Positions 24,272 to 51,343 of a DNA stretch of 64,000 nucleotides are shown piece by piece; the stretch's first letter is position 1; each line of letters starts with the position of its first letter. The stretch comes from Egicoccus sp. AB-alg6-2 (GTDB lineage: Bacteria; Actinomycetota; Nitriliruptoria; Nitriliruptorales; Nitriliruptoraceae): positions 248,001 through 312,000 of the forward strand of contig NZ_JBGUAY010000002.1 in the NCBI RefSeq assembly GCF_041821025.1, in the 5' to 3' direction. Below the pieces are notes generated by a model. That model worked only from the letters and a program-made list of their open reading frames with translations, had not been told where the DNA came from and made no database searches. A program made the position numbers and the translations under genes.

Positions 24272-24907
24272 GTGCGCCGCCCCCTGCCACGACTTCACGT
24301 GCTGACCTCCGCGGCGCAACGCGTCGACGACCTGCGTGTCGTCGACGCCGCACTCGACGCCGGCGCCCCGGCCATCCAGATCCGCGTGAAGGACCGCACC
24401 GACCGCGACCACCTCGAGGTCGCCCGCGCGATCGTGGCGCGCTGCCGCACGACCGGCGCCATCAGCATCGTCAACGACCGCGTCGACCTCGCGCTCGCCG
24501 CCGGCGCCGATGCCGTCCACCTCGGCCTGACCGACCTGCCGATCGCCGCCGCACGCGAGCTCGCCGGCGACCGGCTCGTCATCGGTGGAACCGCGCGTGA
24601 TCCCGACACGGCCCGTCGCCTCGTCGCGGAGGGGGCCGACTACCTCGGGGTCGGCCCCACCTACGCCACCGCCACCAAGGACGGACTGCCAGACCCGATC
24701 GGCCCGGGCACGGTCGCCGCGATCGTCGCAGCGGTCGAGGTCCCCGTCATCGCGATCTCCGGCATCACCGCAGCACGGGTGCCCGAGGTCCTGGCCACCG
24801 GCGCGCACGGGGTGGCCGTCGTCAGCGCCGTCGTCGACGCGCCCGACCCCGGTGCAGCCACCCGCGAACTGCTCGACCTGCTCGCCGACCAGGGGCAGGC
24901 GTCATGA
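24272..24907 (+). CDS. thiE: Thiamine-phosphate synthase
   Basis: A 211-residue TIM-barrel enzyme joining HMP pyrophosphate and thiazole phosphate. The GTG start at 24272 is one base after the transporter stop. Motifs are the substrate loop I-Q-I-R-V-K-D-R, I-V-N-D-R-V-D-L-A-L-A, A-D-A-V-H-L-G, A-D-Y-L-G-V-G-P-T-Y-A-T-A-T-K and I-A-I-S-G-I at the phosphate site. All pyrophosphate and thiazole-binding elements are present, in contrast to the paralogue at 27108, so this copy is the likely functional ThiE. It overlaps thiO by ATGA. Confidence 0.85.
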   Translation: MRRPLPRLHVLTSAAQRVDDLRVVDAALDAGAPAIQIRVKDRTDRDHLEVARAIVARCRTTGAISIVNDRVDLALAAGADAVHLGLTDLPIAAARELAGDRLVIGGTARDPDTARRLVAEGADYLGVGPTYATATKDGLPDPIGPGTVAAIVAAVEVPVIAISGITAARVPEVLATGAHGVAVVSAVVDAPDPGAATRELLDLLADQGQAS

Positions 24908-26033
24908 CGTCCGACGCGCTGTTCGTGGGTGGCGGCATCATCGGTCTCGCCAGCGCCTGGCGGGCGGCCCGGGCCGGCCTCGACGTCACCGTGTTCGACC
25001 CCGCCCCGGGTGCGGCCGCCTCCAACGTCGCCGCCGGCATGCTCGCCCCCGTCACCGAGGTGGAGTACGGCGAGGAGGACCGCCTCGCGCTCAACGTGGC
25101 CGCGGCACGTCGCTGGCCCGCGTTCGCCGACGAACTCGAGGCGGCCGCGGACGCCGACGTGGGTTACCGCGCGACCGGCACGTTGCTGGTCGGCTTCGAC
25201 CGCGACGACGTCGCCGCGCTGTCCGACCTCCACGCGTTCCAGGCCGAACTCGGCCTCGAGGTCGAGCAGCTGCGCAGCCGCGAGGTCCGCGCCCGCGAAC
25301 CGATGCTGAGTCCCCGCGTCCGGGTCGGCCTGCACGCCGCCGAGGACCACCGGGTCGAACCGCGGGCGTGCGTCGCCGCGCTCCTGCGCGCCTGCGCCGA
25401 CGCCGGGGTCGTCCTCGACCACCGCGAGATCGCGCGGGTCGAGCAGCAGGGCGGCCACGTCACCGGCGTGCTGACCGCCGACGGCGAGCGGCACCACGCG
25501 GGCCAGGTCGTGCTCACCGCCGGCGCGTGGTCCGCCACGATCGAAGGGATCCCGGACGCGCACCGACCGGCCGTGCGGCCGGTGAAGGGGCAGCTGCTCC
25601 ACCTGCGTGACCCGTCGGGGCGGCAGGTGCTGACCACCACCGTCCGCGGACTGGTCCGGCACCGCAGCGTCTACCTCGTCCCACGCGACGACGGCCGGCT
25701 CGTCGTCGGCGCCAGCCAGGAGGAGCGGGGCTTCGACACCACCGTGACCGCCGGCGCGGTCCGCGAGCTGCTCGACGACGCCGCCGCCATCGTGCCCGGC
25801 GTCGACGAGCTCGAACTCGTCGAGACGATCGCCGGCCTGCGGCCCACCACCCCGGACAACGCGCCGGTGATCGGTCCCGGCCCCATCGACGGGCTCGTCG
25901 TCGCGACGGGGCACCACCGCAACGGCGTGCTGCTGGCGCCGATCACCGCCGAGGCGGTCACCGCGATCCTCACCGGCGCCGAGGTCGACCCGGTCCTCGC
26001 CGTCGCCCACCCGGACCGAGCAGGAGCACCGAC

Positions 26034-26037
<4 letters not shown>
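24904..26037 (+). CDS. thiO: Glycine oxidase ThiO
   Basis: A 377-residue DAO-family flavoenzyme. The Rossmann motif F-V-G-G-G-I-I-G-L-A-S-A is at residues 7-18, followed by a second FAD element A-A-S-N-V-A-A-G-M-L-A-P. The C-terminal region has G-L-R-P-T-T-P-D-N-A-P-V-I-G and A-T-G-H-H-R-N-G-V-L-L-A-P, both typical of ThiO. It oxidises glycine to the iminoacetate used by ThiG for thiazole assembly under aerobic conditions. It overlaps thiE upstream and thiS downstream (ATGA at 26034), so the three are translated together. Confidence 0.9.
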
Positions 26038-27730
<1,693 letters not shown>

Positions 27731-27734
<4 letters not shown>

Positions 27735-28549
27735 CCACGCCCCACGTCGCGCTCACCATCGCCGGCTCCGACTCCGGCGGTGGCGCCGGCATCCAGGCCG
27801 ACCTGCGGTCCTTCGGGCAGTTCGACGTCTTCGGGGCCAGCGTGATCACCGCGGTCACCGCGCAGAACACCGTCGGCGTGACCGACGTCCACGTGGTCCC
27901 GGCCACGACCGTCACGGCGCAGATCGACGCCGTGCTGGACGACCTGCCGGTCGCAGCCGTCAAGACCGGGATGCTCGCCACGGCCGAACTCGTGGAACTC
28001 GTCGCCGCGCGCGCGGCCGCCGGCGAGCTGCCGAACCTCGTCGTCGACCCGGTGCTCGTGTCGGCGACCGGCCACCGGCTGCTCGAGGACAGCGCCCTGG
28101 CCGCCTACCGCGACCTGCTCCTGCCGCACGCGACGATCGCGACGCCGAACCTCGACGAGGCGACGGCGCTCCTTGGCCGCCCGCTCCGCACGCTCGACGA
28201 CGCCCGCGCCGCGGCCCACGCGCTCGCCGAGCTCGGCACCCGGGTCGTCGTGGTGAAGGGCGGCCACCTCGAAGGCACACACGCCGTCGACGTCGTCGTC
28301 GTGGACGGCGATGACCACGAGCTCGGGGCCGACCGCATCGACACCCCGAACACCCACGGCACCGGCTGCACCTTCGCCGCCGCTGCGGCGGCAGGACTCG
28401 CCAACGGCCTCGATCCGCTCGACGCGCTGGCCGGCGCGAAACGCTACGTCACCGCAGCCATCGCCGGCGCCGCCGCCTGGCGCCTCGGTTCGGGCAACGG
28501 ACCCCTCGACCACCTTGGCTTCGGCACTTCGTGGCGTGCACCGGGGTAA
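27731..28549 (+). CDS. thiD: HMP/HMP-phosphate kinase
   Basis: A 272-residue ribokinase-fold enzyme: [16 protein letters not shown] at the N-terminus, [22 protein letters not shown] near residue 140, V-V-V-K-G-G-H and the anion-hole/catalytic [12 protein letters not shown]. It phosphorylates HMP twice to supply ThiE. It is the last gene of the riboswitch operon. Since no thiC is in the window, HMP may come from uptake through the first gene of the operon or from a distant thiC. Confidence 0.92.
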
Positions 28550-28707: not shown

Positions 28708-29913
28708 TCAAGATGGTGTCGCCATCACTTCCAGGACGCGGTTGGCGCGGATGGCGGCGACGAAGGCGAACAGGTCGAGCGCCCGGCGAGGATCTGCGCC
28801 GGTCAGGTCCCGGACACGCGCCAGGCGGTACAGCACGGTGTTCGGGTGCACGTAGAGCATCTCGGCCGTGCGACTGATGGACAGATCACACCGGGCGAGC
28901 GCTTCCACGGTCTCGGTCAGGTGCGGGCGCCCCGCAAGCGGACGCAGGTAGCGATCGACCAGCGCCGCGGCCGCTTCCTCGTCCGCTGTGGCCAGCACGT
29001 CGAGCAGGACGGCGTCGTAGGCGACCACGTGCTCGGAAGCTGCTGAACGCCGGACGGTCTGCATCGCGGCCAGCGCCTGACGGCACGACGCCCCCGCACT
29101 CGCCAGATCGGCGACGGACCGCCCGACCGTAAGGCGGGGCGCAAGCGGGGCGAACTCGTCGAGCAGCACGACGAGACGCCTGACCAGGTCGTCGGTCAAC
29201 TCGCCGGGGATCAGCAACACGTCGCATCCCTCGGCCGAGCCGGACACGATGCGTCCGGCCCGGTCGGTGCCCAGCACCGCCAGGACGGCCCGCTGCAGCG
29301 CAACCACATCGGTGACGTCGGCGCCGGACTGGGTCGACAGGGCCAGGGCGCGGACGTCCTCGACGTCCTCGTCCCAGCCCAGCGACGTCGCGAGGTGGTT
29401 GATCTGCTCGCCGCGGAGCGCCCCCGCGATGAGACCGGTGACGAGGTCGCCGGCGAGGCGGTCGTAGTGCGCCGTCACCTCCTCCGTCGTCACGCGGTAG
29501 GCGTCGATCGATGCGGTCGCCAGGTCGTCGAAGGCGGCGGCGATCAGTCGCAGGCCGGCCGTCAGCTGGCTCGCGCTCAGCGTGGCTGCCGCATCGACGA
29601 ACGCGTCGGTGATGACCCGCTCCGCGCTGCGGTAGGACAGGACCACCGCGTCGAGTGGCACGCCCTGCAGCGCGCGGTTGACGCCGATCTGCCGGGCCCG
29701 CTCCGTGTCCGCGTCGTCCAGCGGCAGTCCCGCGAGTCGGTCGACCACGGCACGCAGGTTGGGCGTGACCGCGGCCGCATACTCCTCGGCGCGCATGCGC
29801 GGCGGCTCGTAGCCAGGGATGTGCCCCCAGGCGAGGTCGAGAACCTGCGCCGCGAGGACGTCGAGCCTGATTCGGAGGGTGGCCGCGACTTGTGTCAGAT
29901 CCACAAACACCAC
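28708..29913 (-). CDS. PucR-family transcriptional regulator
   Basis: A 401-residue regulator divergent from the permease operon. The C-terminal PucR helix-turn-helix is clear: T-V-E-A-L-A-R-C-D-L-S-I-S-R-T-A-E-M-L, Y-V-H-P-N-T-V-L-Y-R-L-A-R-V, then G-A-D-P-R. The central part (about 170-300) has the GGDEF-like fold common in the family and G-R-S-V-A-D-L. PucR-type proteins usually activate nearby nucleobase or amine catabolic genes in response to a nitrogen compound, so the neighbouring operon is the likely target. The start is uncertain: GTG codons at 29913, 29910 and 29904 are alternatives. Confidence 0.8.
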   Translation of the reverse strand: MVFVDLTQVAATLRIRLDVLAAQVLDLAWGHIPGYEPPRMRAEEYAAAVTPNLRAVVDRLAGLPLDDADTERARQIGVNRALQGVPLDAVVLSYRSAERVITDAFVDAAATLSASQLTAGLRLIAAAFDDLATASIDAYRVTTEEVTAHYDRLAGDLVTGLIAGALRGEQINHLATSLGWDEDVEDVRALALSTQSGADVTDVVALQRAVLAVLGTDRAGRIVSGSAEGCDVLLIPGELTDDLVRRLVVLLDEFAPLAPRLTVGRSVADLASAGASCRQALAAMQTVRRSAASEHVVAYDAVLLDVLATADEEAAAALVDRYLRPLAGRPHLTETVEALARCDLSISRTAEMLYVHPNTVLYRLARVRDLTGADPRRALDLFAFVAAIRANRVLEVMATPS

Positions 29914-29950
29914 CCGGTCGGATTCGGATGATCCAACGCTAGCCGGGTGG
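29910..29950. promoter_or_regulatory. Inverted repeat in pucR/permease divergent region
   Basis: CCACCCGG (29910-29917) and CCGGGTGG (29943-29950) are perfect complements 25 bp apart, overlapping the regulator start region and lying 77 bp before the permease gene. Position suggests an operator for the PucR protein; this is untested. Confidence 0.35.
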
Positions 29951-30026: not shown

Positions 30027-31343
30027 GTGAGCGAACACGCCGATGTTGTGCGGTCGTCACAAAGTGACGATCGGAGTGAGGCGCTGAAGCACGACCACGC
30101 CCTCGAAGCCGTACCGATGTCGGAGCGGCGGTCGACCTTCCAGATGGTCGCCGTCGCGTTCGGCTGGGCGGTCAGCGTGTCGGGGTTCCTGGTGGGCGGC
30201 ACGCTCGGCGGCGGCCTGACCTTCGGGCAGGGCGTGTCGGCGATCGTGCTCGGCAACCTCGTCCTCGTCGTGGTGGCCAGCCTGATCGGACTCGTGGGCT
30301 ACCGCACCGGCATGACCTCGTACCTGATCGCCAAGAACGTGTTCGGCCGCAGCGGGTCGGTGTTCGTCTCGATCATGCTCGGCATCCTCGCGATGGGATT
30401 CATCGGGGTGCTCATGGACGCCTTCGGCAACGCGTTCGTCGCGCTGGTCGACGGCGTGCCGTGGACGTTGGTCGTGCTGGTCTTCGCGGTCCTGGTGCTC
30501 TCGACCGCCCTCTTCGGCTTCACCGGCCTGTCCTGGATCAGCCGGGTCGCGTCCCCCGCGCTGGTGATCCTCTCCGTCCTCGGGCTGATCACGCTCGCGC
30601 GCTCCGAAGGCGGCTTCTCGACCGCGATCAACGCGGTACCCGAGTCGCCGATCGGCTTCGACGTCGGCATCACCGCCGTGTTCGCGACCTGGGTCACGGG
30701 TGCCGCGCTGACCAGCGACATCGCCCGCTACGCCCGCCGCGGACGCGACGTCGTCCTGGCCACCTTCTGCGGCTATGTGCTCGGCGCCGGCTTCTTCGAG
30801 TTCGTCGCCATGATCAGCTCGCACGAGGCAGGCACGTCCGACTTCGTGGCCGCGATGAGTTCGCTCGGGCTGCTCCTGCCGGCCGTCATCGTGCTGGTGC
30901 TCGCCCTGTGGACCACCACGGACAACAACCTGTACTCGTCGTCGCTCGCCTTCACCCACGCCAGCGAGGTCCTGGGACGAACCGTCGCCAAGCCGATCTG
31001 GGTCGTCATCGCCACGGCCATCGCTGTCGGTGTCGCCTTCCTCGGCTTCGCCTCGAACTTCCTGTCGTTCCTGCGGATCATCGGGCTGGTCACGCCGCCG
31101 TTCGCCGGTGTGGTCATCACCCACTACTGGGTGCTGGGCCACATCCGGCGCCCCGAGCTCACCAGCCCCGGCTTTCGCTGGCAGGCTCTGGTCGCCTGGC
31201 TCGGGACCTCGGTGGCCGCCTACTTCGTCGAGCTGCCAGCCGAACCGATCCTGATCCTCGTCATCGGCGGCGCCGTGTATGCCCTGCTGTCGATGGTGGG
31301 ACGATCCGAACAGAGCGTCACCGAGCCAAAGGTCACCGCGTGA
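30027..31343 (+). CDS. NCS1-type cytosine/purine permease
   Basis: A 438-residue protein with 12 predicted TM helices; the GTG at 30027 follows AGGAG. The N-terminus carries R-S-T-F-Q-M-V-A-V-A-F-G-W, then G-G-T-L-G-G-G-L and G-Y-R-T-G-M-T-S-Y-L-I-A-K-N-V-F-G, all typical of the CodB/cytosine-permease branch, and later T-S-D-I-A-R-Y-A-R-R-G-R-D-V and T-T-D-N-N-L-Y-S-S-S-L. It should import a nucleobase, hydantoin or related N-heterocycle by cation symport. It heads a five-gene operon and its stop overlaps the next start (GTGA). Confidence 0.85.
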   Translation: MSEHADVVRSSQSDDRSEALKHDHALEAVPMSERRSTFQMVAVAFGWAVSVSGFLVGGTLGGGLTFGQGVSAIVLGNLVLVVVASLIGLVGYRTGMTSYLIAKNVFGRSGSVFVSIMLGILAMGFIGVLMDAFGNAFVALVDGVPWTLVVLVFAVLVLSTALFGFTGLSWISRVASPALVILSVLGLITLARSEGGFSTAINAVPESPIGFDVGITAVFATWVTGAALTSDIARYARRGRDVVLATFCGYVLGAGFFEFVAMISSHEAGTSDFVAAMSSLGLLLPAVIVLVLALWTTTDNNLYSSSLAFTHASEVLGRTVAKPIWVVIATAIAVGVAFLGFASNFLSFLRIIGLVTPPFAGVVITHYWVLGHIRRPELTSPGFRWQALVAWLGTSVAAYFVELPAEPILILVIGGAVYALLSMVGRSEQSVTEPKVTA

Positions 31344-32356
31344 ACCCTCGCTTCGGTCTCGGCGTCCCCACCGGTACCGAGGGGATGATGTACCCGGTGC
31401 CCTACGCCACCATCGACGAGGCGGTCGAACTCGCCGTCGCCGCCGAGGAGCTCGGCTACGACTCGGTGTGGGGCAACGACCACCTGACCACACAGGCGTA
31501 CGTGCGCGAGGAGTTCGACCAGCCGCCGAACTTCTTCGATCCGCTGAGCTACCTCACGTTCGTCGCGGCCAGGACGCAACGGATCCGTCTGGCGACCTGC
31601 ATCCTCGTGTTGCCGTTCCGCCATCCGGTCGTGGCCGCCAAGCAGCTCGCGACGATCGATCAGCTCAGCAGGGGACGGCTGGTCGTCGGTGTCGGCATCG
31701 GCGCCTACCGCGAGGAGTTCGAGGCGCTGCACCCCGGCGTCAAGCTGCACCGTGGCCGCTACGCCGAGGAGGCGCTGCGCTCGCTGCAGCTGCTGTTCAC
31801 CGAGCGGCGCGCCAGCTTCGACGGCGAGTTCATCCGGTTCGCCGACGTCGAGAGCTACCCCAAGCCGGTCCAGCAGCCGCTGCCCCTGCTGTCGGGCGGC
31901 AACAGTCCCGGCTCCAAGGACCGTGCCGGCCGCCTGGTCGACGGCTGGCTCCCCGCCTGCCTCACCCCCGCCGAGGTCGAGTCCGGTCTGGCGGCGATCA
32001 AAGAGTCAGCGGACTCGGTGGACCGGCAGCTGCCAGACCACTTCGAGATGGCGCTGCAGCTCGGCATCTCCGTCGCGCCGACGCGCGAGGAAGCCGAGGA
32101 ACGCTTCCGCTCGTCGCAGGTCTACAAGCACATGGAGTCGCTGGCGGGCTCCACCCTCAAGGATCAGCAGGACGGCGACCTGATGTCACGCAACCTGGTC
32201 GGCACTCCCGACGAGGTCGCCACACAGGTGCAGGCCTACCTCGACGTCGGCGTCGACACCTTCGCCGGGTCGCTGTTCGCCTGCGACACCGTCGGTGAGA
32301 CGCTCAAGGCGATGGAGCTCTTCCGTGACGAGGTGATGGCGCGCTTCACGTCCTGA
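31340..32356 (+). CDS. LLM-class flavin-dependent oxidoreductase
   Basis: A 338-residue luciferase-like monooxygenase-fold protein with GTG at 31340. Hallmarks are E-L-G-Y-D-S-V-W-G-N-D-H, T-Q-R-I-R-L-A-T, L-P-F-R-H-P-V-V-A-A-K-Q-L-A-T-I-D and G-R-L-V-V-G-V-G-I-G, followed by K-L-H-R-G-R-Y. Members use FMN or F420 to oxidise or open substrates; RutA, which opens the uracil ring, is a distant relative. Placement directly after a nucleobase-type permease suggests action on the imported compound. The cofactor cannot be decided from the sequence. Confidence 0.8.
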   Translation: MNPRFGLGVPTGTEGMMYPVPYATIDEAVELAVAAEELGYDSVWGNDHLTTQAYVREEFDQPPNFFDPLSYLTFVAARTQRIRLATCILVLPFRHPVVAAKQLATIDQLSRGRLVVGVGIGAYREEFEALHPGVKLHRGRYAEEALRSLQLLFTERRASFDGEFIRFADVESYPKPVQQPLPLLSGGNSPGSKDRAGRLVDGWLPACLTPAEVESGLAAIKESADSVDRQLPDHFEMALQLGISVAPTREEAEERFRSSQVYKHMESLAGSTLKDQQDGDLMSRNLVGTPDEVATQVQAYLDVGVDTFAGSLFACDTVGETLKAMELFRDEVMARFTS

Positions 32357-32401
32357 CCTCCGCACCGCCCGCTTCGACCGACACGGGGAGACGACGACAC
32401 C

Positions 32402-33607
32402 ATGTCCGAAACGCGCTCCAGCCTCGCCGCCGCGCCGCCCGCCGGCCTGCTCGCCCAGCACCTCGACCGGCTACGCGCCGCCCTTGCGGAGGCGCCGTTC
32501 GACGTCTTCGTCGCCGGCTCGCCCGCCAACGTCGCGCACGCCACCGGCTACCGCAGCGTGGCGGGGGAGCTGTTCCGCGCTCACCAGATGGCGGCGGTCG
32601 TGACCCCCGACGACGTCGTGCTGGTCTGTCCCGTCGCCGACGCCGCCCCGGCCGCCGATGCCGGGATGGCCGCGGACACAATCGTGCACTACGGCCGATT
32701 CTTCTTCGAGGTCGCCGACGGATCAGGGCTGAGCGCACCGCCGGTCGACCAGCACGGCGATCTCGCCGCAGCACTGGCCACTGCACTCGGCCGGATCGGG
32801 GCGACGGCACGTCTCGGCCTCGACATCGAGGGGCTGGGCGCGAGCTGGCCCGCCGTCGAGGCAGCCCTTCCGCCTGGCAGCGTGGTCGTCGACGCCTCCG
32901 CATGGGCGAAGCAGGTGCGCGCCCGCAAGCTCCCCGCCGAGGTCGAGCTGCTGCGGCAGGCCGCCCGGCTGGCGGAGGAGGGCATCGACCGGGCCATCCT
33001 CAAGGCCGGCCCTGGGATCACCGAACGCGAACTGGCCGCCGAGGTGGCCCATGCCATGGTCGCAGGTGGCGGCTCGCCCCGGTTCGTGGTCGTGACCAGC
33101 GGACCGCGCAGTGCCCTGGCCGACGCGACGCCCACGGACCGTCAGCTGGCCGGCGGCGACCTGCTGCGGTTCGACGTCGGCTGCGTCCTGCACGGCTACT
33201 GGTCCGACATCGGCCGGACCGCGGTCGTCGGCGACCCGGACCAGCTCCAGCAGCGTCGCTACGAGGCGATCTACGCCGGCGAGCAGGCGCAGCTCGAGCT
33301 CGTAAGGCCGGGCGTCACGGCGCGCGAACTGTTCGACGTTGCGGTCGAGACCGTCGAGACGCACGGCCTGGCGCCCTACCGGCGCCACCACTGCGGCCAC
33401 GGGATCGGCCGCGAGGTGTACGAACCGCCGATCATCGCGCCCAGCTACGACACCCCGCTCGAGCCGGGCATGACCTTCTGCTTCGAGACGCCGTTCTACG
33501 AGCTCGGCTGGGGCGGCATGATGGTCGAGGACACCCTGGTCGTGACCGAGGACGGCTGCCAGATGCTCAGCAGCTCCGACCGCTCCCTGCGCGTGGTGCC
33601 GTGGTGA
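32402..33607 (+). CDS. M24-family metallohydrolase (creatinase/Xaa-Pro peptidase-like)
   Basis: A 401-residue protein with a creatinase N-terminal domain (about 15-165) and a pita-bread M24 domain (about 175-395). The five metal ligands are present: Asp in L-R-F-D-V-G-C, Asp in Y-W-S-D-I-G-R, His in H-C-G-H-G-I-G, Glu in F-C-F-E-T-P and Glu in M-M-V-E-D-T. The family includes X-Pro peptidases and creatinase, which hydrolyses a guanidino/urea-type bond without metal; with all ligands kept, a metal hydrolase is more likely here. In this operon it may cleave an amide or ureide intermediate. It overlaps the next gene by GTGA. Confidence 0.8.
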   Translation: MSETRSSLAAAPPAGLLAQHLDRLRAALAEAPFDVFVAGSPANVAHATGYRSVAGELFRAHQMAAVVTPDDVVLVCPVADAAPAADAGMAADTIVHYGRFFFEVADGSGLSAPPVDQHGDLAAALATALGRIGATARLGLDIEGLGASWPAVEAALPPGSVVVDASAWAKQVRARKLPAEVELLRQAARLAEEGIDRAILKAGPGITERELAAEVAHAMVAGGGSPRFVVVTSGPRSALADATPTDRQLAGGDLLRFDVGCVLHGYWSDIGRTAVVGDPDQLQQRRYEAIYAGEQAQLELVRPGVTARELFDVAVETVETHGLAPYRRHHCGHGIGREVYEPPIIAPSYDTPLEPGMTFCFETPFYELGWGGMMVEDTLVVTEDGCQMLSSSDRSLRVVPW

Positions 33608-34869
33608 GCGACTACACCGGCAGCCTCCGCTGCGTGCGCTGTGGCCACGACCTCGACGCCCGTTCGCCGTGGACCGGCTGCCCGAACTGCGCCGCCGACG
33701 ACGTCCATGCCAACGCGCTGCCCACCTATGGGTCGGCCACCGCCGACAGCCTGGCGCCGGCCGCCGACCAGCCCGGGCTGTTCCGGTTCCGGCGCCGACT
33801 GCCGATCTCCGATGACGCCGTCCCCGTCAGCCTGGGGGAAGGCAACACGCCACTCGTTGGTGTCGAGTCGCTGGCCGATACCGCAGGCGTCGGCCAACTG
33901 TGGTTCAAGGACGAGACGCGCAACCCGACCTGGTCGTACAAGGACCGGCTCGCGGCGGTCGCGATCACCGAGGCGCGCGCCCGCGGCGCCGACACGGTGG
34001 CGTTGGCCACGACCGGCAACCACGGCGCCGCGACGGCGGCCTACGCCGCGGCTGCGGGGCTCCGCTGTGTCGCGCTGACGCTGACCTCGGTGCCCACCAC
34101 CATGAAGGTGCTGATGCAGGCCTACGGCGCCGAGGTGCTGGCCCTGCGGACCGGCCCCGAACGATGGCAGCTGCTGCGCCAGGCCATCGACGCCTGGGGC
34201 TGGGTGCCGGTCTCCGGCTTTCTCGACCCGCCCATCGGATCGAACCCGTTCGGCGTCGACGGCTACAAGACGATCGCGTTCGAACTCCACGCCGACCTCG
34301 GTGACGTACCCGACGTCGTCGTCGTGCCGGCCGCGTACGCGGACGGGCTGGCCGGGATCCAGCGTGGCTTCGCCGACCTGGTCGAGGCCGGCCTGGCCGA
34401 CCGACAACCCCAACTCGTCGCGGTCGATCCCTTCGGAGCGTATGCGGCCGCGCTCGGCGATCCTGCCCCGGTCCTGCCACGAGTCGGGTACGGGCCGAGC
34501 ACCGCCTTCTCGATCGCAACGCCGACGGCGACGCACCAGGGCGTCGCGGCCCTCCAGGCCTGCGGAGGGCTGGCGGCGGGACCGTTCGACGACAAGCAGC
34601 TCGCGGACGCACAGCTGCGAATTGCACGCAGCAGTGGCCTGTACCTCGAAGCATCCTCAGCAATCACCTTGCTGGCGGTCGAGCAGCTCGCCGCCACCGG
34701 GCAAATCGCTCCCGATGGCCGCGTCGTCTGTCTCGCCACGTCGACGGGCCTCAAGGACATCGGCATGACCGCGGAACACCTCCCAGAGGTGCCGGTCATC
34801 GAACCGCAGCTCGACCAACTCGAGCGGCACCTGGACGGTGCCGGTCAACGAGCGGCCGCCGACACATGA
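33604..34869 (+). CDS. Threonine-synthase-like PLP enzyme with zinc ribbon
   Basis: A 421-residue fold-type II PLP enzyme. Residues 9-30 form a CxxC...CxxC ribbon (R-C-V-R-C-G and G-C-P-N-C). The PLP lysine is in T-W-S-Y-K-D-R (about residue 119), the phosphate-contacting A-T-T-G-N-H-G-A-A is near residues 137-145, and G-S-N-P-F-G-V-D-G-Y-K is as in threonine synthase. The N-terminal ribbon is found in threonine synthases and related lyases. Its neighbours argue for a catabolic beta-elimination or replacement rather than threonine synthesis, but a threonine synthase copy is not excluded. GTG start, overlapped with the M24 gene; its end overlaps the next start. Confidence 0.75.
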   Translation: MSDYTGSLRCVRCGHDLDARSPWTGCPNCAADDVHANALPTYGSATADSLAPAADQPGLFRFRRRLPISDDAVPVSLGEGNTPLVGVESLADTAGVGQLWFKDETRNPTWSYKDRLAAVAITEARARGADTVALATTGNHGAATAAYAAAAGLRCVALTLTSVPTTMKVLMQAYGAEVLALRTGPERWQLLRQAIDAWGWVPVSGFLDPPIGSNPFGVDGYKTIAFELHADLGDVPDVVVVPAAYADGLAGIQRGFADLVEAGLADRQPQLVAVDPFGAYAAALGDPAPVLPRVGYGPSTAFSIATPTATHQGVAALQACGGLAAGPFDDKQLADAQLRIARSSGLYLEASSAITLLAVEQLAATGQIAPDGRVVCLATSTGLKDIGMTAEHLPEVPVIEPQLDQLERHLDGAGQRAAADT

Positions 34870-35831
34870 GGCTCGGGTTCGCGATCTCGGGAAAGCGGTC
34901 GGCTCGCGAGGCGGTCGACGTGGCCCGTCAGGTCGAGGCCGCCGGGCTCGAAGAGGTCTGGATCACGGAGGACTACTTCGAGCGCGGTGCCTTCGCAGTG
35001 GCCGGCGCGGTCCTGACCGCCACCTCCCGTGTGAAGCTCGGGATCGGCGTCATCAACCCGTGGACGCGCCATCCCGTGCTGACGGCCATGGAGACCGCGG
35101 CGTTGAGCGAGCTCGCGCCTGGCCGACTGCTGCTCGGTCTCGGCGCATCCAACGAGCGTTGGATGCAGCAGCAGCTGGGAATCCCGTTCCAGAAGCCACT
35201 CCGTCGCCTGGAGGAAGCGGTCGAGATCCTTCGTCCCGCGCTTCGCGGGGAGGTCGTGCGGCACGAGGGTCTGGCCGGGGCGGTCGATGCCAAGCTGGCC
35301 TTCTCGGCCGGGGACGTGCCGATCATCCTCGGCGTGAAGGGGCCTCGCGCCCTGGACCTCGCCAGTCGGGTATCCGACGGGGTGCTGCTCTCGGTGCTGG
35401 CGGCGCCGGCGTACGTCGCATGGGCGGCACGGCGTCTGGGTGGCGACCTGCCCTACGGCATCGGCAGCTACATCGCCGTTCGATGCGAGGCCGATCGCGC
35501 CGCGGCGCGGGCCGCCCTGCGGCCGTTCGTGGCCTACTACCTCGGTGTGCACGGCGACCATGCCATCACGCGGGAGGCGGGTATCGACCCGGAGCTGGCC
35601 GCTCGCTTCCGCAGCGGGCTGCAGGACGGTCAGCCGCGCACGGACCTGGTGACCGAGGAACACCTCGACAGCTTCGTCGCCGCGGGCAATCGGGACGACA
35701 TCGTCGCCGCGCTCGGCCGGTTCGCCGACGCCGGGCTCGACACCGCGGTCGTCTTCGATCAGACCGACCTGCCCCTCGAACGCGTGCTCAGCGACGTGAT
35801 CCCGGCTGCCAAGGAGGCCGGGGCGACGTAG
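34866..35831 (+). CDS. LLM-class oxidoreductase, methylene-H4MPT-reductase-like
   Basis: A 321-residue protein beginning M-R-L-G-F-A-I-S, with G-L-E-E-V-W-I-T-E-D, I-G-V-I-N-P-W-T-R-H-P, L-L-L-G-L-G-A-S and P-I-I-L-G-V-K-G-P-R-A-L. These are the features of the F420-dependent branch resembling methylene-tetrahydromethanopterin reductase. It differs clearly from the first LLM gene of the operon, so the two probably do different steps. Last gene of the operon, overlapping the PLP-enzyme stop by ATGA. Confidence 0.8.
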   Translation: MRLGFAISGKRSAREAVDVARQVEAAGLEEVWITEDYFERGAFAVAGAVLTATSRVKLGIGVINPWTRHPVLTAMETAALSELAPGRLLLGLGASNERWMQQQLGIPFQKPLRRLEEAVEILRPALRGEVVRHEGLAGAVDAKLAFSAGDVPIILGVKGPRALDLASRVSDGVLLSVLAAPAYVAWAARRLGGDLPYGIGSYIAVRCEADRAAARAALRPFVAYYLGVHGDHAITREAGIDPELAARFRSGLQDGQPRTDLVTEEHLDSFVAAGNRDDIVAALGRFADAGLDTAVVFDQTDLPLERVLSDVIPAAKEAGAT

Positions 35832-36724: not shown

Positions 36725-36903
36725 GTCCGTACTCCTCGCCCAGGTCGTGTCGGCTCAACCGTAGACCCTGGAGATTTGTGGTTCGTGGTGCTGCTCGCGG
36801 ACGTGCTCGACCGGTAGGTCGAAACGACGCCTGCGGCGCTGGCGGGGTGCCTTGCCAAGCTCCGTGGGGCAACGTATCGTCAAGCCAGTTTTGGGAGTCA
36901 GAG

Positions 36904-36918
36904 TTTCATCTAGTGAAA
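36904..36918. promoter_or_regulatory. Inverted repeat upstream of aminotransferase gene
   Basis: TTTCA-TCTAG-TGAAA lies 15 bp before the ATG at 36934. Its half TTTCATCTA matches TTTCACCTA of the stronger repeat at 38270, read on the opposite strand. A shared binding site for the IclR protein encoded at 45378 is an attractive guess. Confidence 0.4.
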
Positions 36919-36933
36919 GCATCCGGGGATCGT

Positions 36934-38202
36934 ATGTCGAGTAAGAAGAGCCTTGCCGCCCAACTGCACTCGGATGCAGTGAGCTTCACACCGGGAGGCG
37001 TGCACTCCAACGTCCGCCTCGAACGGGCTACGGCTTTCTTCGCCCGCGGTAAGGGCGCGTGGCTCTGGGACGTCGAGGGCAACGACTACGTCGATTATCT
37101 GCTGGGGCAGGGCCCGAACTTCCTCGGGCATGCACCAGAGGCCGTCACCGAAGCGGTTGCCGATGCCTGCAGGCGGGGGATGGTCTACGGCGCCCAGCAC
37201 GAGCTGGAAGTGGAAGCGGGCCGCTCCTTCCTCTCAGCGGTGGCATGGGCGGATCAGGTCCGGTTCGGCCTCTCAGGGACCGAGATGGTGCAGGCTGCGC
37301 TGCGGCTGGCCCGGGCCGTGACTGGCCGGAAGAAATTCATCCGATTCGAAGGCCACTATCACGGTTGGCTCGACAACGTGCTCCTCGCACCACAGGCGGA
37401 CGGGACCCCGGGGCCGGCAAGTGCAGGTCAGTTGTCCAGCCACCTCGAGGACTGCGTGATCCTGCCGTGGAACGACGAGAACGCGCTCGCGCACGCCTTG
37501 GAAGAGCACGCGGGACAGGTCGCCGCGGTCATCACCGAGCCGTTCATGTGCAACAGCGGAGCGGTGTCGCCCCGTGACGGCTACCTGCAACGGATGCGCC
37601 AACTATGCGATGAGCACGAGGCCGTGCTGATCTTCGACGAGGTCATCACGGGTTTCCGGGTGGCGTTCGGAGGTGCAGCAGAACGTTTCGGCGTCACCCC
37701 CGATCTCGCGACCTACGGCAAGGCAATGGCCGGGGGATGGCCGGTGGCGGCCCTGGCGGGGCGCGCCGAACTCATGCAGCGGTTTGCGGACGACGTGAGC
37801 CACGCCGGCACCTTCAATGCGTCGGTCATGGCCTGCGCGGCGGTGGTCGCAACGCTCGAGGAACTGCGTTCCGACCCGCCATATGCCCGGGTCGAGGCGC
37901 ACGGCGAAGAGGTCATGGCAGGTATCCGGAAGCTCGCGGACGACCACGAGGTGCCGTTGCGGGTGCAGGGACTCGGGATGTCCTTCCACGCCTCCTTCGG
38001 CCCGAAAGACCGCGTTTTCGACTTCCAAGGCCTTCAGGCACTCGACCTTCAGCGTTACAACGCACTGGCGCAGCGATTGACGGAGTTCGGGGTCTGGGTG
38101 GCCGGACGAGGCATCTGGTACGTGTCCGCCGCCCACGGCGACAGGGAGGCGACCGTGGTGCTCGAACGGCTGGATGCTGCGCTTCGAGCGTGGCACGGGT
38201 GA
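36934..38202 (+). CDS. Class III aminotransferase, glutamate-1-semialdehyde-aminomutase-like
   Basis: A 422-residue PLP enzyme; the ATG at 36934 is taken because recognisable sequence begins soon after (T-P-G-G-V-H-S-N). Motifs: W-D-V-E-G-N-D-Y-V-D-Y, G-T-E-M-V-Q-A-A-L-R-L-A-R-A, E-G-H-Y-H-G-W, I-F-D-E-V-I-T-G-F-R and the PLP lysine in Y-G-K-A-M-A-G-G-W-P. The architecture is that of HemL, but the setting, with a catabolic gene set directly downstream and not haem genes, favours an amino-acid or amine transaminase/racemase of the family. A 105-bp gap with a promoter separates it from the ABC genes. Confidence 0.75.
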   Translation: MSSKKSLAAQLHSDAVSFTPGGVHSNVRLERATAFFARGKGAWLWDVEGNDYVDYLLGQGPNFLGHAPEAVTEAVADACRRGMVYGAQHELEVEAGRSFLSAVAWADQVRFGLSGTEMVQAALRLARAVTGRKKFIRFEGHYHGWLDNVLLAPQADGTPGPASAGQLSSHLEDCVILPWNDENALAHALEEHAGQVAAVITEPFMCNSGAVSPRDGYLQRMRQLCDEHEAVLIFDEVITGFRVAFGGAAERFGVTPDLATYGKAMAGGWPVAALAGRAELMQRFADDVSHAGTFNASVMACAAVVATLEELRSDPPYARVEAHGEEVMAGIRKLADDHEVPLRVQGLGMSFHASFGPKDRVFDFQGLQALDLQRYNALAQRLTEFGVWVAGRGIWYVSAAHGDREATVVLERLDAALRAWHG

Positions 38203-38232
38203 AGTCATTCGAGGCGCGGCGCCGACGACCAC

Positions 38233-38261
38233 TTGACAAGCCGCACCAAGCCATGTTGAGT
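38233..38261 (+). promoter_or_regulatory. Promoter of ABC/creatininase operon
   Basis: TTGACA at 38233-38238, 17-bp spacer, TTGAGT at 38256-38261. The -35 is perfect, the -10 weak. It lies just upstream of the palindrome at 38270-38289, which would cover the transcription start region. Confidence 0.45.
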
Positions 38262-38269
38262 TTTTGAAA

Positions 38270-38289
38270 TCACCTATTTTGGTAGGTGA
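38270..38289. promoter_or_regulatory. Operator-like palindrome TCACCTA-N6-TAGGTGA
   Basis: Perfect 7-bp inverted repeat with a 6-bp AT-rich centre (TTTTGG), 9 bp after the putative -10 and 18 bp before the ATG at 38308. Position suits a repressor. It shares the half-site TTTCA[CT]CTA with 36904-36918. Confidence 0.55.
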
Positions 38290-38307
38290 AACCGGAGGGA
38301 GCCGGGT

Positions 38308-39678
38308 ATGAGGGAGCAGTCACGACCTGCCGCCGTCGGCGCAGCGTTCTCGCGACGGACGTTCTTGCAGGGCAGTGCAGGACTGGGAGGCCTTCTGGCC
38401 ACCGGTGGGCTCGCTGCAGTGCTCGCAGCCTGCGGGCGAGCCAACGAAGGTGCGCCGACCGGTGAGCCGGGTGAGAATTTCACCGGCGCGCTCGGTCTGC
38501 TTCTCGGATCGCACATGGGGCCGGTCCAAGAACTGGTGACCCAGTACGAGAGCGAGTATGGGGTCACGCCCGAAGTCCAGGAGATCACCACCCCTGATCT
38601 CCGCAGCGTCGTCTCCAGCGCCTTCCTGGCGCAGAGTTCGCCCTGGGATGCCATCTTCACGACCGCCGTCCTCGCGCAGGAACTCGGTGCCCGCAACTGG
38701 GTGCAGACGGTCGACGCCTTCCTGGACCAGAGCGTTCGTGCGCGAGGCGAGCTGATGGACCGCGGATTGGGTGCGATCAGCGCTGCCGACGGCTACCTCG
38801 CGGTGCCGTGGACCATGGGCGCTCCGCTGATGCACTGGAACCGGCAGTTGCTCGAGGATGCCGATCTCGACCCCGACGCCCCACTGAACTGGCACGCCGA
38901 ACCCAATTCTTGGGACACCTTCGTCGAGTATGCCCAGGCGCTGACCTTCGAACGCGACGGCGTCCAGCACTACGGATTCACCGACGCGTGGGCCGATGAC
39001 CACATCCTCTACACGTGGGGATCGCTGCTGCAGATGCACGGCGGACGTTTCCTCGACGACGAACACGAGCCGGTCTTCAACGACGACGCCGGCGTCGAAG
39101 CGACCATGAAGATGTACGAGCTGCTCAACACGCACAGGGTCGTGGATCCCGCCGTGAACACCTACACCTGGGTGTTCGATGCATCCCCGGGCTTCCTCAA
39201 CGGAACGCGCGCCTTCTTCTTCACCTGGCCCTTCATCGCTGGGGTCGCCAACGACCCAGAAGGGTCCGAGATTGCTGGCAACAACGCGTTCGCGCCTCAG
39301 CCCGCCGTCGAGACCAGTGCGTCGGTCGACGGTTCGGAGTTCCTCGCCGTGCCGGTGTTCGCAGACAACGAGGACGAGGCCTGGCGCTTCCTCGAACTGG
39401 TGACCAGCCCGGAGGGGCAGCGCACCATCGCGCTCGGAGGCTGGGCCTCGATCTACCGCGATGTGAACCTCGATCCGGAGGTCCTCGAAGCGTTCCCGGT
39501 CAACGAGGCAGTCGTGCAGTCCTACGAGTACCCGGTCGACGGTGGCTACTCGGCTGATCGCGAGATCTGGGGGCCGATCCTCGGCAACCAGATCCAAGAG
39601 GTGTTTGCGGACAACAAGAGCGCCCAAGAAGCACTCGACGACGCCGTCAGGCTCATCCGCGCCGAGCGGGAAGGTTAG
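38308..39678 (+). CDS. ABC transporter substrate-binding lipoprotein (sugar-type)
   Basis: A 456-residue protein with a Tat-type signal (S-R-R-T-F-L-Q-G) and a lipobox ending L-A-A-C (Cys about residue 34). The mature protein is a COG1653-type family 1 binding protein: L-V-T-Q-Y-E-S-E-Y-G, a D-A-I-F-T-T segment, G-Y-L-A-V-P-W-T-M-G-A-P, W-D-T-F-V-E-Y-A-Q-A-L and a C-terminal S-P-E-G-Q-R-T-I. Family 1 members bind sugars, oligosaccharides, polyols or sugar-like compounds. ATG at 38308 with GGAGGG upstream. First gene of the long operon; the ligand cannot be read from the sequence. Confidence 0.85.
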   Translation: MREQSRPAAVGAAFSRRTFLQGSAGLGGLLATGGLAAVLAACGRANEGAPTGEPGENFTGALGLLLGSHMGPVQELVTQYESEYGVTPEVQEITTPDLRSVVSSAFLAQSSPWDAIFTTAVLAQELGARNWVQTVDAFLDQSVRARGELMDRGLGAISAADGYLAVPWTMGAPLMHWNRQLLEDADLDPDAPLNWHAEPNSWDTFVEYAQALTFERDGVQHYGFTDAWADDHILYTWGSLLQMHGGRFLDDEHEPVFNDDAGVEATMKMYELLNTHRVVDPAVNTYTWVFDASPGFLNGTRAFFFTWPFIAGVANDPEGSEIAGNNAFAPQPAVETSASVDGSEFLAVPVFADNEDEAWRFLELVTSPEGQRTIALGGWASIYRDVNLDPEVLEAFPVNEAVVQSYEYPVDGGYSADREIWGPILGNQIQEVFADNKSAQEALDDAVRLIRAEREG

Positions 39679-39692
39679 AAGTCATCGGGAAC

Positions 39693-40655
39693 GTGACGGG
39701 GACTGAGACACACAGCCCCGCGAACTCAGCGCTCGCCGACGATCCAGATGGCTCGGCGCACAAGCGCACGTCGTGGCGGCGACAGGAGCGGCGGACCGCG
39801 CTGCTCCTGGTCGCTCCGGCGTTCCTCGTGGTCGCGGGTGTGTACCTCTATCCGGCCGTCGCGACACTCGTCTACAGCACGACGTCGATCGACATCGGTA
39901 CCTACACGGTGGAACGGTTCGTCGGTCTGGGCAACTTCGAGACCGTGCTCCAGAGCGACACCTTCCAGACCGTGTTGCTACGCACCATCTACTTCGGTGT
40001 GATGGTTTCCGTCCTGACGGTGATTCCTGCCTTCTTCATCGCCCTGCTCCTCAATCAGCGGTTCCCGGGTCGAACCGTCCTCCGCGTCGTCGTGTTGCTG
40101 CCATGGGCAGTGCCGCCGGTTGTCGCTGGGGTGTTGTGGACCCAGATGTTCCAGTCCGAGTACGGGTTCGTGAACGCTGCCCTCCGCGAGTTGGGTTTCT
40201 CCGGACAGACCATCTGGCTCGGCGAGCCCAACCTGGCTCTGCATGCCCTCGTCATTGCCGAAGTATGGCGCTGGTTGCCGTTCGCAACCCTGTTCCTGCT
40301 GGCGGGGCTACAGACCATCCCCCGAGACGTCTACGAAGCCGCCGACGTGGATGGCGCCACCATCTGGCAGCGAATGACTCAGGTGACCCTCCCCTTGATG
40401 GGGCCGATGATCATCCCCGTGGTCATCTTCCTCTTCGTGTGGGCGATGAAGGCCTTCGACACGATCTTCGTCCTCACGCGCGGTGGCCCTCGGATGGGGA
40501 CCACGACCTTGAACTATCTCGTCTACCAGCAGGGCTTCGAACAGTTCCGCTTCGGTCGTGCGGCCGCGACCGCCTACCTGCTGACGCTGCTCACACTCTT
40601 CGTGATCATGGCGCTCAGCCTCCTCCGTCGGTACGGCAAGAGGCGAGTCGCATGA
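39693..40655 (+). CDS. ABC transporter permease, MalF/UgpA type
   Basis: A 320-residue protein with GTG at 39693 and six TM helices after a charged N-terminus. The EAA loop reads Y-E-A-A-D-V-D-G-A-T-I-W-Q-R-M-T-Q-V-T-L-P (about residues 212-232), the contact site for the ATPase. Its end overlaps the next permease start by ATGA. Together with the adjacent permease and binding protein it makes a carbohydrate-type importer. Confidence 0.9.
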   Translation: MTGTETHSPANSALADDPDGSAHKRTSWRRQERRTALLLVAPAFLVVAGVYLYPAVATLVYSTTSIDIGTYTVERFVGLGNFETVLQSDTFQTVLLRTIYFGVMVSVLTVIPAFFIALLLNQRFPGRTVLRVVVLLPWAVPPVVAGVLWTQMFQSEYGFVNAALRELGFSGQTIWLGEPNLALHALVIAEVWRWLPFATLFLLAGLQTIPRDVYEAADVDGATIWQRMTQVTLPLMGPMIIPVVIFLFVWAMKAFDTIFVLTRGGPRMGTTTLNYLVYQQGFEQFRFGRAAATAYLLTLLTLFVIMALSLLRRYGKRRVA

Positions 40656-41497
40656 CGATGTCACGACGTTCCCGTCGCAGGCTGGGTCACGTTGGTCGAT
40701 ACTCAGCCGCCTTGGCGGTGTTCACCTTCGTGGCGTTCCCCTTATACGCGGTGTTGCTCACGAGTGTGCAGACCGAACGTGACGTCCGATCGCCGGACCT
40801 CTCGCTGATTCCGACCTACCTCGACTTCAGTCACTACCAGGCGGTGCTCACGCCCGGACACATCGTCCCGGTCGTCGAGGGGATGATGAACAGCCTCTTC
40901 GTCTCCCTCGTCGCCGCGATTATTGCGGTCGCTCTCGCCGCTCCCGCCGCCTACGCGCTGCACCGACTGCATGTTCCAGGTGGCAGGTACATCCTGGCAG
41001 CGATGGTGTCGGTGTACGTGTTGCCCACGCTGCTGTTCATCATCCCGCTCTACATCGCCTGGATCAGCGTCGGCCTCCACGACACGTACGCGGGGTTGAT
41101 CATCCCGTACGTCGCGTTCCTTCTGCCGTTCACCGTCTGGATCCTCGGCTCCTTCGTCAAGGCGGTCCCCGCCGAGGTGGAGGAGGCTGCGCGGATCGAT
41201 GGCGCCTCGCCACTGCAGATCCTGACCCGCATCGTCACCCCCTTGATCTTGCCGGGAGTGTTCGCCTGCCTGCTGCTGGGGTTCATCCTCTCCTGGGTCG
41301 AGTTCCTCACGCCACTGCTGTTCACCAGCGACATCACCATCCTCACCGTCGCGCTCGGGCTGTACCGCTCGACTTTCGACATCCAGATCGGGCAGTTGGC
41401 GGCATCAGCGGTCCTGACCGCGCTTCCCGTGATCGTCATCACTCTGATCTTCCAGAAGCGCCTCCAAGAGGTCATCGTGGTCGGAGCCGACAAGTGA
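40652..41497 (+). CDS. ABC transporter permease, MalG/UgpE type
   Basis: A 281-residue partner permease with six TM helices. The EAA loop is V-E-E-A-A-R-I-D-G-A-S-P-L-Q-I-L-T-R-I-V-T-P-L-I-L-P. A-Y-A-L-H-R-L and Y-V-L-P-T-L-L-F-I-I-P-L-Y are typical of the MalG branch. No ATPase gene follows anywhere in the cluster, so the importer probably relies on a shared MsiK-like ATPase encoded elsewhere. Confidence 0.9.
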   Translation: MTMSRRSRRRLGHVGRYSAALAVFTFVAFPLYAVLLTSVQTERDVRSPDLSLIPTYLDFSHYQAVLTPGHIVPVVEGMMNSLFVSLVAAIIAVALAAPAAYALHRLHVPGGRYILAAMVSVYVLPTLLFIIPLYIAWISVGLHDTYAGLIIPYVAFLLPFTVWILGSFVKAVPAEVEEAARIDGASPLQILTRIVTPLILPGVFACLLLGFILSWVEFLTPLLFTSDITILTVALGLYRSTFDIQIGQLAASAVLTALPVIVITLIFQKRLQEVIVVGADK

Positions 41498-41526
41498 CGT
41501 CCGATCCTGCCCAGAAAGGCGCCGCC

Positions 41527-42321
41527 ATGGACGTTCGACTGCACACCCGAACCTGGCTGGAAGTCCGTGAGCTGCTTGATGACGAGCCCGTCATCGTCAT
41601 CCCGATCGGTGCGCTCGAACAGCACGGTCCGCATCTGCCGCTCGAGACCGACTTTCGGATGGCGGACACGGTCGCCGAGTTGGCCGCCCAACGAGCCACT
41701 GCGGACGGCACCCCAACCCTGGTCACGCCGCCGATCTGGAGCGGCTACTCGCCCCATCACATGGACTTCCAGGGCACCGTCACGCTCAGTTCCGCGACCC
41801 TTCAAGCCGTCATCCGCGACGTCGCGGTCAGCCTGTGGCGCCATGGGTTCCGCAAGATCTTGTTCCTCAATGGCCACGGTGGGAACGCGAACCTGCTCGG
41901 AGGCATGGTGCAAACGCTGCGGTTCGAAGAAGGGGTCAGGGTCGCAGCCGCGAGCTACTGGTCCTTCGTGGCCGACCGCATCGGCGAGTGGCGGCACTCC
42001 GGACCGGGCGGGATCGATCACGCCTGCGAGATGGAGATGTCGTTGATGTTGCACGTCCGCCCCGAGCATGCCCGAGCCGAGGTCGCGACCGACGGCACGT
42101 GGTTCCCCAACTCCCGCTTCCTGACCGGCGACCTTGCCATCGGTGCGCCGGTCTCGGTGTCGTGGAGCTTCAGTGAGCTGACCGAGAACGGGACGCTGGG
42201 CGACCCCGTGAAGGCGAGCGCCGAGCGCGGCGCCGAACTCCTCACCATGATCGTCGACGAGGTCGCCGCCTTCCTCACCGAGTTCCGCAACTGGAACTGG
42301 GACGAGCCGCGAGCAATCTGA
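41527..42321 (+). CDS. Creatininase-family amidohydrolase
   Basis: A 264-residue protein; the ATG at 41527 is preferred (GAAAGG upstream), though a GTG at 41494 overlapping the permease stop is possible. Metal-binding motifs of the family are intact: G-A-L-E-Q-H-G-P-H-L-P-L-E-T-D, then S-P-H-H-M-D-F, N-G-H-G-G-N and D-H-A-C-E-M-E. Members include creatinine amidohydrolase and enzymes that hydrolyse cyclic or aryl formamides with two metal ions. In this operon it probably opens or deacylates the imported substrate. It does not decide the compound. Confidence 0.88.
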   Translation: MDVRLHTRTWLEVRELLDDEPVIVIPIGALEQHGPHLPLETDFRMADTVAELAAQRATADGTPTLVTPPIWSGYSPHHMDFQGTVTLSSATLQAVIRDVAVSLWRHGFRKILFLNGHGGNANLLGGMVQTLRFEEGVRVAAASYWSFVADRIGEWRHSGPGGIDHACEMEMSLMLHVRPEHARAEVATDGTWFPNSRFLTGDLAIGAPVSVSWSFSELTENGTLGDPVKASAERGAELLTMIVDEVAAFLTEFRNWNWDEPRAI

Positions 42322-42332
42322 AAGGACGCGCG

Positions 42333-45348: not shown

Positions 45349-45377
45349 GTGCCGCATCCTCCTCGCCGGACGAGCCC

Positions 45378-48540: not shown

Positions 48541-48557
48541 GACGAGGAGGGATCACG

Positions 48558-48926: not shown

Positions 48927-48927
48927 C

Positions 48928-51266: not shown

Positions 51267-51343
51267 TGAGCGATACGACCGTCCCCGCGCTGCAGGTAGT
51301 TGCAGAAGCAAGTACGATCGGGCTAGCCATAGCGGAGGTCATG

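Follow-up and report, generated by a model that had tools for sequence, protein, structure and literature searches.

A conserved four-enzyme gene module linked to cofactor F420 and its possible role in the reductive catabolism of an N-heterocyclic compound

The system in print that comes closest to the genes described here is the reductive uric acid pathway (XdhD, YgfK/UacX, SsnA, HyuA, YgeW/UacY, YgeY and YgeX). The pathway has been demonstrated, and an F420-dependent, luciferase-family yanthine reductase is proposed in Chloroflexota (PMC12507026); the pathway combines a xanthine dehydrogenase (XDH)-like enzyme, reductive dearomatisation, hydrolytic ring opening and a pyridoxal phosphate (PLP)-dependent lyase that forms pyruvate and ammonia. 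We analysed a stretch of 64,000 nucleotides from Egicoccus sp. AB-alg6-2 (contig NZ_JBGUAY010000002.1, positions 248,001 to 312,000; hereafter the window), and in it an operon of five open reading frames (ORFs) on the plus strand at 30027–35831. In this order, they encode an NCS1-family permease (NCS1), a luciferase-like monooxygenase-family protein (LLM1), an M24-fold hydrolase (M24), a threonine-synthase-like PLP enzyme and a second luciferase-like protein (LLM2). As compared to the uric acid pathway, the operon has two LLMs, one M24 in place of the amidohydrolases and the threonine-synthase-like PLP enzyme in place of YgeX, and it has no carbamoyl-removing enzymes. Family scans found neither SsnA, HyuA, YgeW/UacY nor YgeY among the five operon proteins.

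Three other systems resemble parts of the locus. Anaerobic nicotinate catabolism employs a molybdenum (Mo) nicotinate dehydrogenase, 6-hydroxynicotinate reductase and an enamidase. It shares the logic of hydroxylating, reducing and then opening a lactam, and the Mo subunit of one set-bearing genome (G1306, Christensenellales) matches nicotinate dehydrogenase chains; it differs in that, for the present genes, reduction by F420 and LLMs and opening by M24 are proposed, and the PLP step implies an α-amino acid product. Picrate degradation employs hydride transferases together with NpdG, and is similar in that an F420:NADPH oxidoreductase supplies two hydride transfers that depend on F420H2, whereas its downstream enzymes are other than M24 and the PLP enzyme, and the present set has a wider phylum range. 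Ectoine degradation likewise pairs an M24 ring opener (DoeA/EutD hydrolase) with a fold-type II PLP enzyme (EutB dehydratase). However, the operon proteins miss the DoeA and EutB cut-offs, the window operon has no DoeB, and nothing corresponding to the LLMs and F420 genes is known to us from that route. The author of an earlier note on this DNA knew of no described pathway with such a combination; in agreement, we found no paper with this gene set in the open PubMed Central literature, and the module apparently lacks description in print.

The four enzyme genes form a real, conserved module. The operon of coupled or closely spaced genes claimed in the earlier note was confirmed in its ORFs and families, with 4-bp overlaps at three of the four junctions (NCS1/LLM1, M24/PLP and PLP/LLM2) and a 45-bp gap between LLM1 and M24. 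We examined the 10-kb neighbourhood of LLM1 in 24 genomes other than the window with a strong LLM1 match, each counted once. In 21 of these 24 genomes, from several phyla, LLM1 has LLM2, M24 and the PLP enzyme all within this distance, a count that is not wholly free of choice because five of the 24 entered through the PLP enzyme. The neighbourhood is incomplete in L097 (contig end), L064 (a different PLP enzyme) and L067. Conservation beyond the source genome, on which the earlier note had made its proposal depend, was thus observed.

A contig scan with the PLP enzyme returned seven loci, named here from their record titles: an Acidobacteria metagenome-assembled genome (L021), Cellulomonas (L022), Ruminococcaceae (L023 and L024, the latter under a Candidatus name), Rokubacteria (L025), Chloroflexota (L026) and Christensenella (L027). 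L021–L025 carry all four enzyme genes, L026 only M24 and the PLP enzyme, and L027 is truncated where its contig stops. The window order NCS1-LLM1-M24-PLP-LLM2 recurs in L023 and L024 at 35–49% identity. LLM1 was detected in 4 of the 66 genomes searched in the window's class and in 3 of 396 in its phylum. Around genome G063, the searches of its phylum (1/398) and order (1/295) each returned the centre genome alone, and the order of genome G067 gave 2/248, one being the centre genome. Given that the wide searches, in the window's phylum and in the phylum and order of G063, return only known members, the set is rare and even draws miss it. In the class to which the Rokubacteria genome G065 belongs, 19 of 95 genomes had LLM1, and in 15 the match exceeded 350 bits. 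We read all 15 strong places and four of the six weaker ones, leaving aside G1454 and the second place in G1425. At each of the 15 strong places, LLM2 and M24 are found no more than 10 kb from LLM1, M24 in L080 being of a more distant type; the PLP enzyme is within the same distance in 14, the exception being L067. The LLM1 and PLP trees each give separate Firmicutes, Rokubacteria and window-like groups, with some joins on long branches. A plasmid search with LLM1 found no ortholog among the best 25 of 1272 records (28–36% identity). Rokubacteria also carry a second LLM1-like set, 41–44% identical (L080:2829–6012, L081, L082 and L083), in some cases accompanied by an M24 of its own and by TTT-type genes.

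The gene set is linked to cofactor F420, with F420 genes present in the hosts and, in Firmicutes, next to the set. CofE scored above its cut-off in all 16 genomes tested, 15 of which bear the set. In four of four Firmicutes genomes, the set is intermixed with F420 genes, namely those for F420:NADPH oxidoreductase, CofE, an energy-coupling factor (ECF) importer component and, in some, CofC/CofD. Directly after LLM2, L023 encodes F420:NADPH oxidoreductase (npdG/Fno; TIGR01915, 208.2 against a cut-off of 149.8), an ECF S component (TIGR04518, 61.3 against 60) and CofE (TIGR01916, 258.4 against 180.65), and L024 repeats this layout. In Christensenella UBA941, the PLP gene is followed on one contig by Fno, CofE, ECF-S, CofE and CofD (293.2 against 257.45), and on another contig CofC (137.8 against 105) adjoins LLM1. 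In G1306, a single strand carries a Mo hydroxylase (FAD, FeS and Mo subunits), LLM2, LLM1, a LIV importer, Fno, ECF-S, M24 and a CysK-like PLP enzyme, which takes the place of the usual PLP enzyme after M24; CofE faces this run. The ECF S components beside CofE/Fno in Firmicutes (L023:12962–13522, L027:2472–3080 and L064:1171–1716) are candidate importers of FO or an F420 precursor.

With moderate confidence, we propose that the operon encodes a reductive, F420-dependent catabolic pathway for a small N-heterocyclic compound. The substrate would be imported, here through NCS1, and in some hosts a Mo hydroxylase would first alter the ring, either by hydroxylation or by dehydroxylation as in XdhD. 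LLM1 and LLM2 would then use F420H2 as hydride donor and dearomatise the ring, while F420:NADPH oxidoreductase would regenerate F420H2 from NADPH. M24 would hydrolyse the resulting cyclic amide or amidine to an α-amino acid with a leaving group on its β-carbon. The PLP enzyme would eliminate this group, giving 2-aminoacrylate or a like enamine and then a keto acid and ammonia, and RidA may assist this last step in some hosts. Hydride transfer from F420H2, that is, reduction, is favoured because F420:NADPH oxidoreductase and CofE genes are linked to the set and because the set occurs in gut Firmicutes lineages. β-elimination is favoured because a CysK-like enzyme replaces the PLP enzyme in G1306 and a RidA gene is present in L023. 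The earlier note had suggested ring oxidation and opening, amide hydrolysis and PLP-dependent elimination; hydrolysis followed by elimination fits our proposal, whereas oxidation by the LLMs does not, since the F420 genes and the gut Firmicutes point to reduction. A pyrazine-2-carboxylate-type compound is a candidate substrate, whose breakdown would call on every enzyme a single time, for two reductions, the hydrolysis of one lactam and β-elimination of glycine; imidazole-4-carboxylate or picolinate are alternative candidate types. Dipicolinate was rejected by reasoning only, as its N-adjacent ring carbons are not free for hydroxylation and M24 would be needless.

The two LLMs scored 198 and 173 bits on Bac_luciferase. 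LLM1 exceeds the cut-off of the F420-dependent family TIGR03619 (209.4 against 166.9). The best solved-structure matches of LLM2 are methylene-tetrahydromethanopterin reductases (7.6e-34), although its scores lie under the curated Mer cut-offs (140.1 against 348.7 and 170.2 against 276). The LLMs might instead be oxidative, acting as FMN/O2 monooxygenases or F420-dependent dehydrogenases on a saturated amine, alcohol or ring before amide hydrolysis and PLP elimination. FMNH2-dependent monooxygenases are indeed among the best PDB matches of LLM1, and F420 enzymes of the same fold also act as dehydrogenases, according to a review (PMC8498797). However, LLM1 clears the F420-dependent cut-off, LLM2 is nearest to Mer, and the set occurs alongside F420:NADPH oxidoreductase and CofE in Ruminococcaceae and Christensenellales, which are anaerobes. 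We consider oxidative LLMs unlikely, although the dehydrogenase form may apply.

M24 matches Peptidase_M24 (PF00557, 183 bits) and Creatinase_N (30 bits), lies below the curated prolidase models and misses the curated DoeA models (85.7 against 575 and 85.0 against 613). It keeps five residues that we take to be the metal ligands (D258, D269, H333, E362 and E376), and the two histidines of prolidase ('PHG' and 'VHE') are replaced by D and Y. At the first of these positions, D is found in the main LLM-linked M24s and N in L080, L082, Bosea and Agrobacterium, while H occurs only in a distant Chloroflexota M24 (the distant Cupriavidus row being unaligned there). A role of M24 as Xaa-Pro dipeptidase or aminopeptidase P was not supported, both of these histidines being absent beside the kept metal ligands. 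The predicted M24 model (predicted local distance difference test score, pLDDT, 87.4) best matches DoeA (Z 40.9, root-mean-square deviation (rmsd) 2.8, 367 aligned, 26% identity), tied with the PepE dipeptidase (Z 39.9, rmsd 2.6, 364 aligned). The PLP enzyme scored 189 bits on PALP (PF00291), and the best matches of its model (pLDDT 85.2) are threonine synthases (Z 39.7, rmsd 2.5, 367 aligned; Z 38.4, rmsd 2.1, 315 aligned). Nevertheless, it missed every threonine synthase cut-off (PRK08197, 194.5 against 303; TIGR00260, 99 against 167.1; PRK05638, 153.5 against 421) as well as that of EutB. The threonine-synthase motifs NPTGSFKDR, GNT(S/A)A and PVGNAGN read NPTWSYKDR, GNHGA and PAAYADG in the window enzyme, and close kin are alike. 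As the curated models failed and the active-site motifs are changed, a threonine synthase function was not supported.

The DoeA match of the M24 model, the best one though tied with PepE, would fit a different explanation, in which the substrate is an already reduced ring (a cyclic amidine resembling ectoine, or a compound resembling creatine), M24 and the PLP enzyme form the centre of the pathway and the trimming of side groups falls to the LLMs. M24 and PLP pairs do exist without LLMs, and a Cupriavidus relative of the PLP enzyme sits with an M24, a DoeB-like deacylase and EhuB. On the other hand, the DoeA scores of M24, about 85 bits against cut-offs of 575–613, and the Pfam scan, which detected no DoeB-like deacylase in the window operon, speak against it; to our knowledge NCS1 is not an ectoine importer type. 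We regard this explanation as slightly less probable again than oxidative LLMs.

Mo hydroxylase-type genes adjoin the set in six genomes (L021, L025/L071, L064, L073, L080, with the small subunit, and L081, with the second LLM1 type). Beside the set in L021 (12504–18899), we also observed an S-Me-THD (DUF917) protein and a hydantoinase-A-like gene together with the Mo hydroxylase. In G1306, the Mo subunit gene overlaps LLM2 by 4 nt. The best NCBIfam model of the three Mo subunits scanned is 4-hydroxybenzoyl-CoA reductase, under its cut-off (one score being 598 against 994.55). The G1306 subunit has 1rm6 as its best PDB chain and matches both nicotinate dehydrogenase and 4-hydroxybenzoyl-CoA reductase chains. 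XDH-like genes, PucR and NCS1 fit purines loosely, and the proposal of an F420-dependent, luciferase-family yanthine reductase in Chloroflexota (PMC12507026) would fit a form of the reductive purine/uric acid pathway in which the reductases depend on F420. This variant is improbable, because amidohydrolases of the SsnA or HyuA type, carbamoyltransferases and M20 peptidases are absent from the operon proteins, and the opening of both rings and removal of both ureido groups is beyond a single hydrolase; a purine link through PucR/XDH was likewise rejected for having too few hydrolases. Finally, the genes might belong to unrelated pathways and be neighbours only loosely or by chance. The varying importers and regulators and the rarity of the set (3/396 genomes of the window's phylum) might point that way, but this explanation is contradicted by the survey, in which all four enzymes are kept in 21/24 genomes in differing gene orders, and is very improbable.

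Several observations weigh against the F420-dependent reductive pathway. The genes, their linkage and their F420 association are observations, while every reaction and the substrate are inferred, and the use of F420H2 by LLM1 and LLM2 is proposed from their kin and neighbouring genes rather than from a bound structure. The agreement of CofE and LLM1 in the order of G067 speaks for the F420 link, CofE being above its cut-off in only 2/248 genomes, exactly the two that bear LLM1, but the fair chance figure for this match is 1/247 and not smaller, since G067 was picked for having the set. CofH (FO synthase) was above its cut-off in 38/61 relatives but had no match in the set-bearing draft genomes G000 and G003 (98% complete), both of which carry CofD and CofE. 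It was also under its cut-off in the three Firmicutes draft genomes tested, and CofD had no match in two Ruminococcaceae draft genomes. No Mo hydroxylase was seen in most of the loci read, the window neighbourhood included. Moreover, the PLP enzyme occurs without the other set genes on a Mycobacterium plasmid, and M24 and the PLP enzyme occur without close LLM1 or LLM2 orthologs on plasmids of Rhodococcus JS3073, Tistrella, Bosea and Agrobacterium, so the LLM pair and the M24 and PLP pair are separable.

These plasmid pairs (L045, L046, L037 and L033 for Bosea, Agrobacterium, Tistrella and Rhodococcus) are accompanied by TTT, TAXI or MFS transporters and are candidates for a related, shorter pathway. 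The Cupriavidus plasmid locus (L036:5735–11097; M24, DoeB-like deacylase, PLP relative and EhuB) perhaps represents an alternative ectoine route. On the rhizobial plasmids L034, L035, L045 and L046, genes for threonine synthase, a cysteine-synthase-like protein and a kinase recur near N-acyl-homoserine lactone (AHL)/LuxR-type genes.

PucR and NCS1 lie outside the conserved core, and importers and regulators differ by locus. NCS1 cleared the Pfam Transp_cyt_pur cut-off (82 bits against 23.5) but missed the curated CodB cut-off (219.8 against 326); its best PDB match is the cytosine permease 7qoa (1.1e-41), and it is 44–45% identical to the NCS1 adjoining LLM1 in two Ruminococcaceae. Among the loci read, NCS1 is beside the set only in the window, G003, L023 and L024. 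The other importers, with types mostly assigned by eye, are Dpp-type (L021, L022), LIV-type (L064, L069, L075–L077, L079), NMT1-type (L030) and, with the second LLM set, TTT-type (L080). A PucR ortholog is present in G003 (67%), and weaker ones (35–36%) are beside the set in Cellulomonas and G047. A YheO-like regulator is found in L023, with a similar protein in L024 and L097 (by eye), and an IclR regulator in L073 (by eye). The RidA gene of L023 adjoins NCS1. The earlier description of a PucR-linked import operon stands for its catabolic look and its composition, whereas PucR and NCS1 are only local options.

In the window, PucR is divergent from NCS1 across a gap of 113 bp (Table 1). A thi operon (ThiO, ThiG, ThiE and ThiD by reading) lies directly upstream of PucR at 24904–28549, outside the conserved set. 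A thiamine link of the operon was rejected as coincidence: the CytX score of NCS1 (104 against 309.85) is lower than its score on CodB, and reading by eye showed no thi genes next to the G003 set. Downstream of LLM2, an α/β hydrolase on the opposite strand is likewise outside the set. A second catabolic-looking region (36778–52381) contains a class III aminotransferase, a sugar-type ABC importer, a creatininase-family enzyme, an M81/MlrC protein, an FAA hydrolase and an FAD-linked oxidase; a 411-amino-acid ORF within it (42333–43568) has zero Pfam matches.

Table 1. Features of the operon and its upstream region, in window coordinates
Feature	Position	Strand	Remarks
PucR-family regulator	28708..29913	-	PF13556 HTH_30, 64 bits; local regulator, outside conserved core
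16-bp block, candidate operator	29930..29945		Identical in congener G003, between PucR and NCS1 (two-sequence alignment only)
NCS1-family permease, CodB-like, importer	30027..31343	+	GTG start; PF02133, 82 bits
LLM1, luciferase-like hydride transferase (proposed F420H2-dependent)	31340..32356	+	TIGR03619
M24-fold hydrolase, proposed ring-opening cyclic amide/amidine hydrolase	32402..33607	+	PF00557
Threonine-synthase-like fold-type II PLP enzyme, N-terminal Zn ribbon; proposed α,β-eliminating lyase	33604..34869	+	PF00291
LLM2, Mer-like luciferase-like hydride transferase (proposed F420H2-dependent)	34866..35831	+	Best solved-structure matches: methylene-tetrahydromethanopterin reductases, 7.6e-34

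A review states that no experiment has addressed what F420 does in bacteria other than Actinobacteria; it leaves undecided whether Firmicutes produce the cofactor, and which role it has in Firmicutes and other new producers (PMC8498797). The present set would give a concrete, assayable F420 role in Rokubacteria and Firmicutes. A broader reading, which we offer only tentatively, is that F420-dependent dearomatisation and ring opening of a small N-heteroaromatic acid may extend across phyla and, in gut Firmicutes, may be the main reason for F420, with FO or a precursor taken up by a dedicated ECF S component and finished by CofC/CofD/CofE, there being no clear FO synthase. The set predicts that gut bacteria possess an importer for an F420 precursor. 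Its carriers differ widely, ranging from bacteria of the soil to anaerobes of the gut, and F420 is a rare cofactor. Screening could reveal the substrate of the enzymes that the set would supply, namely a pair of hydride transferases, a hydrolase that opens the ring and a PLP lyase.

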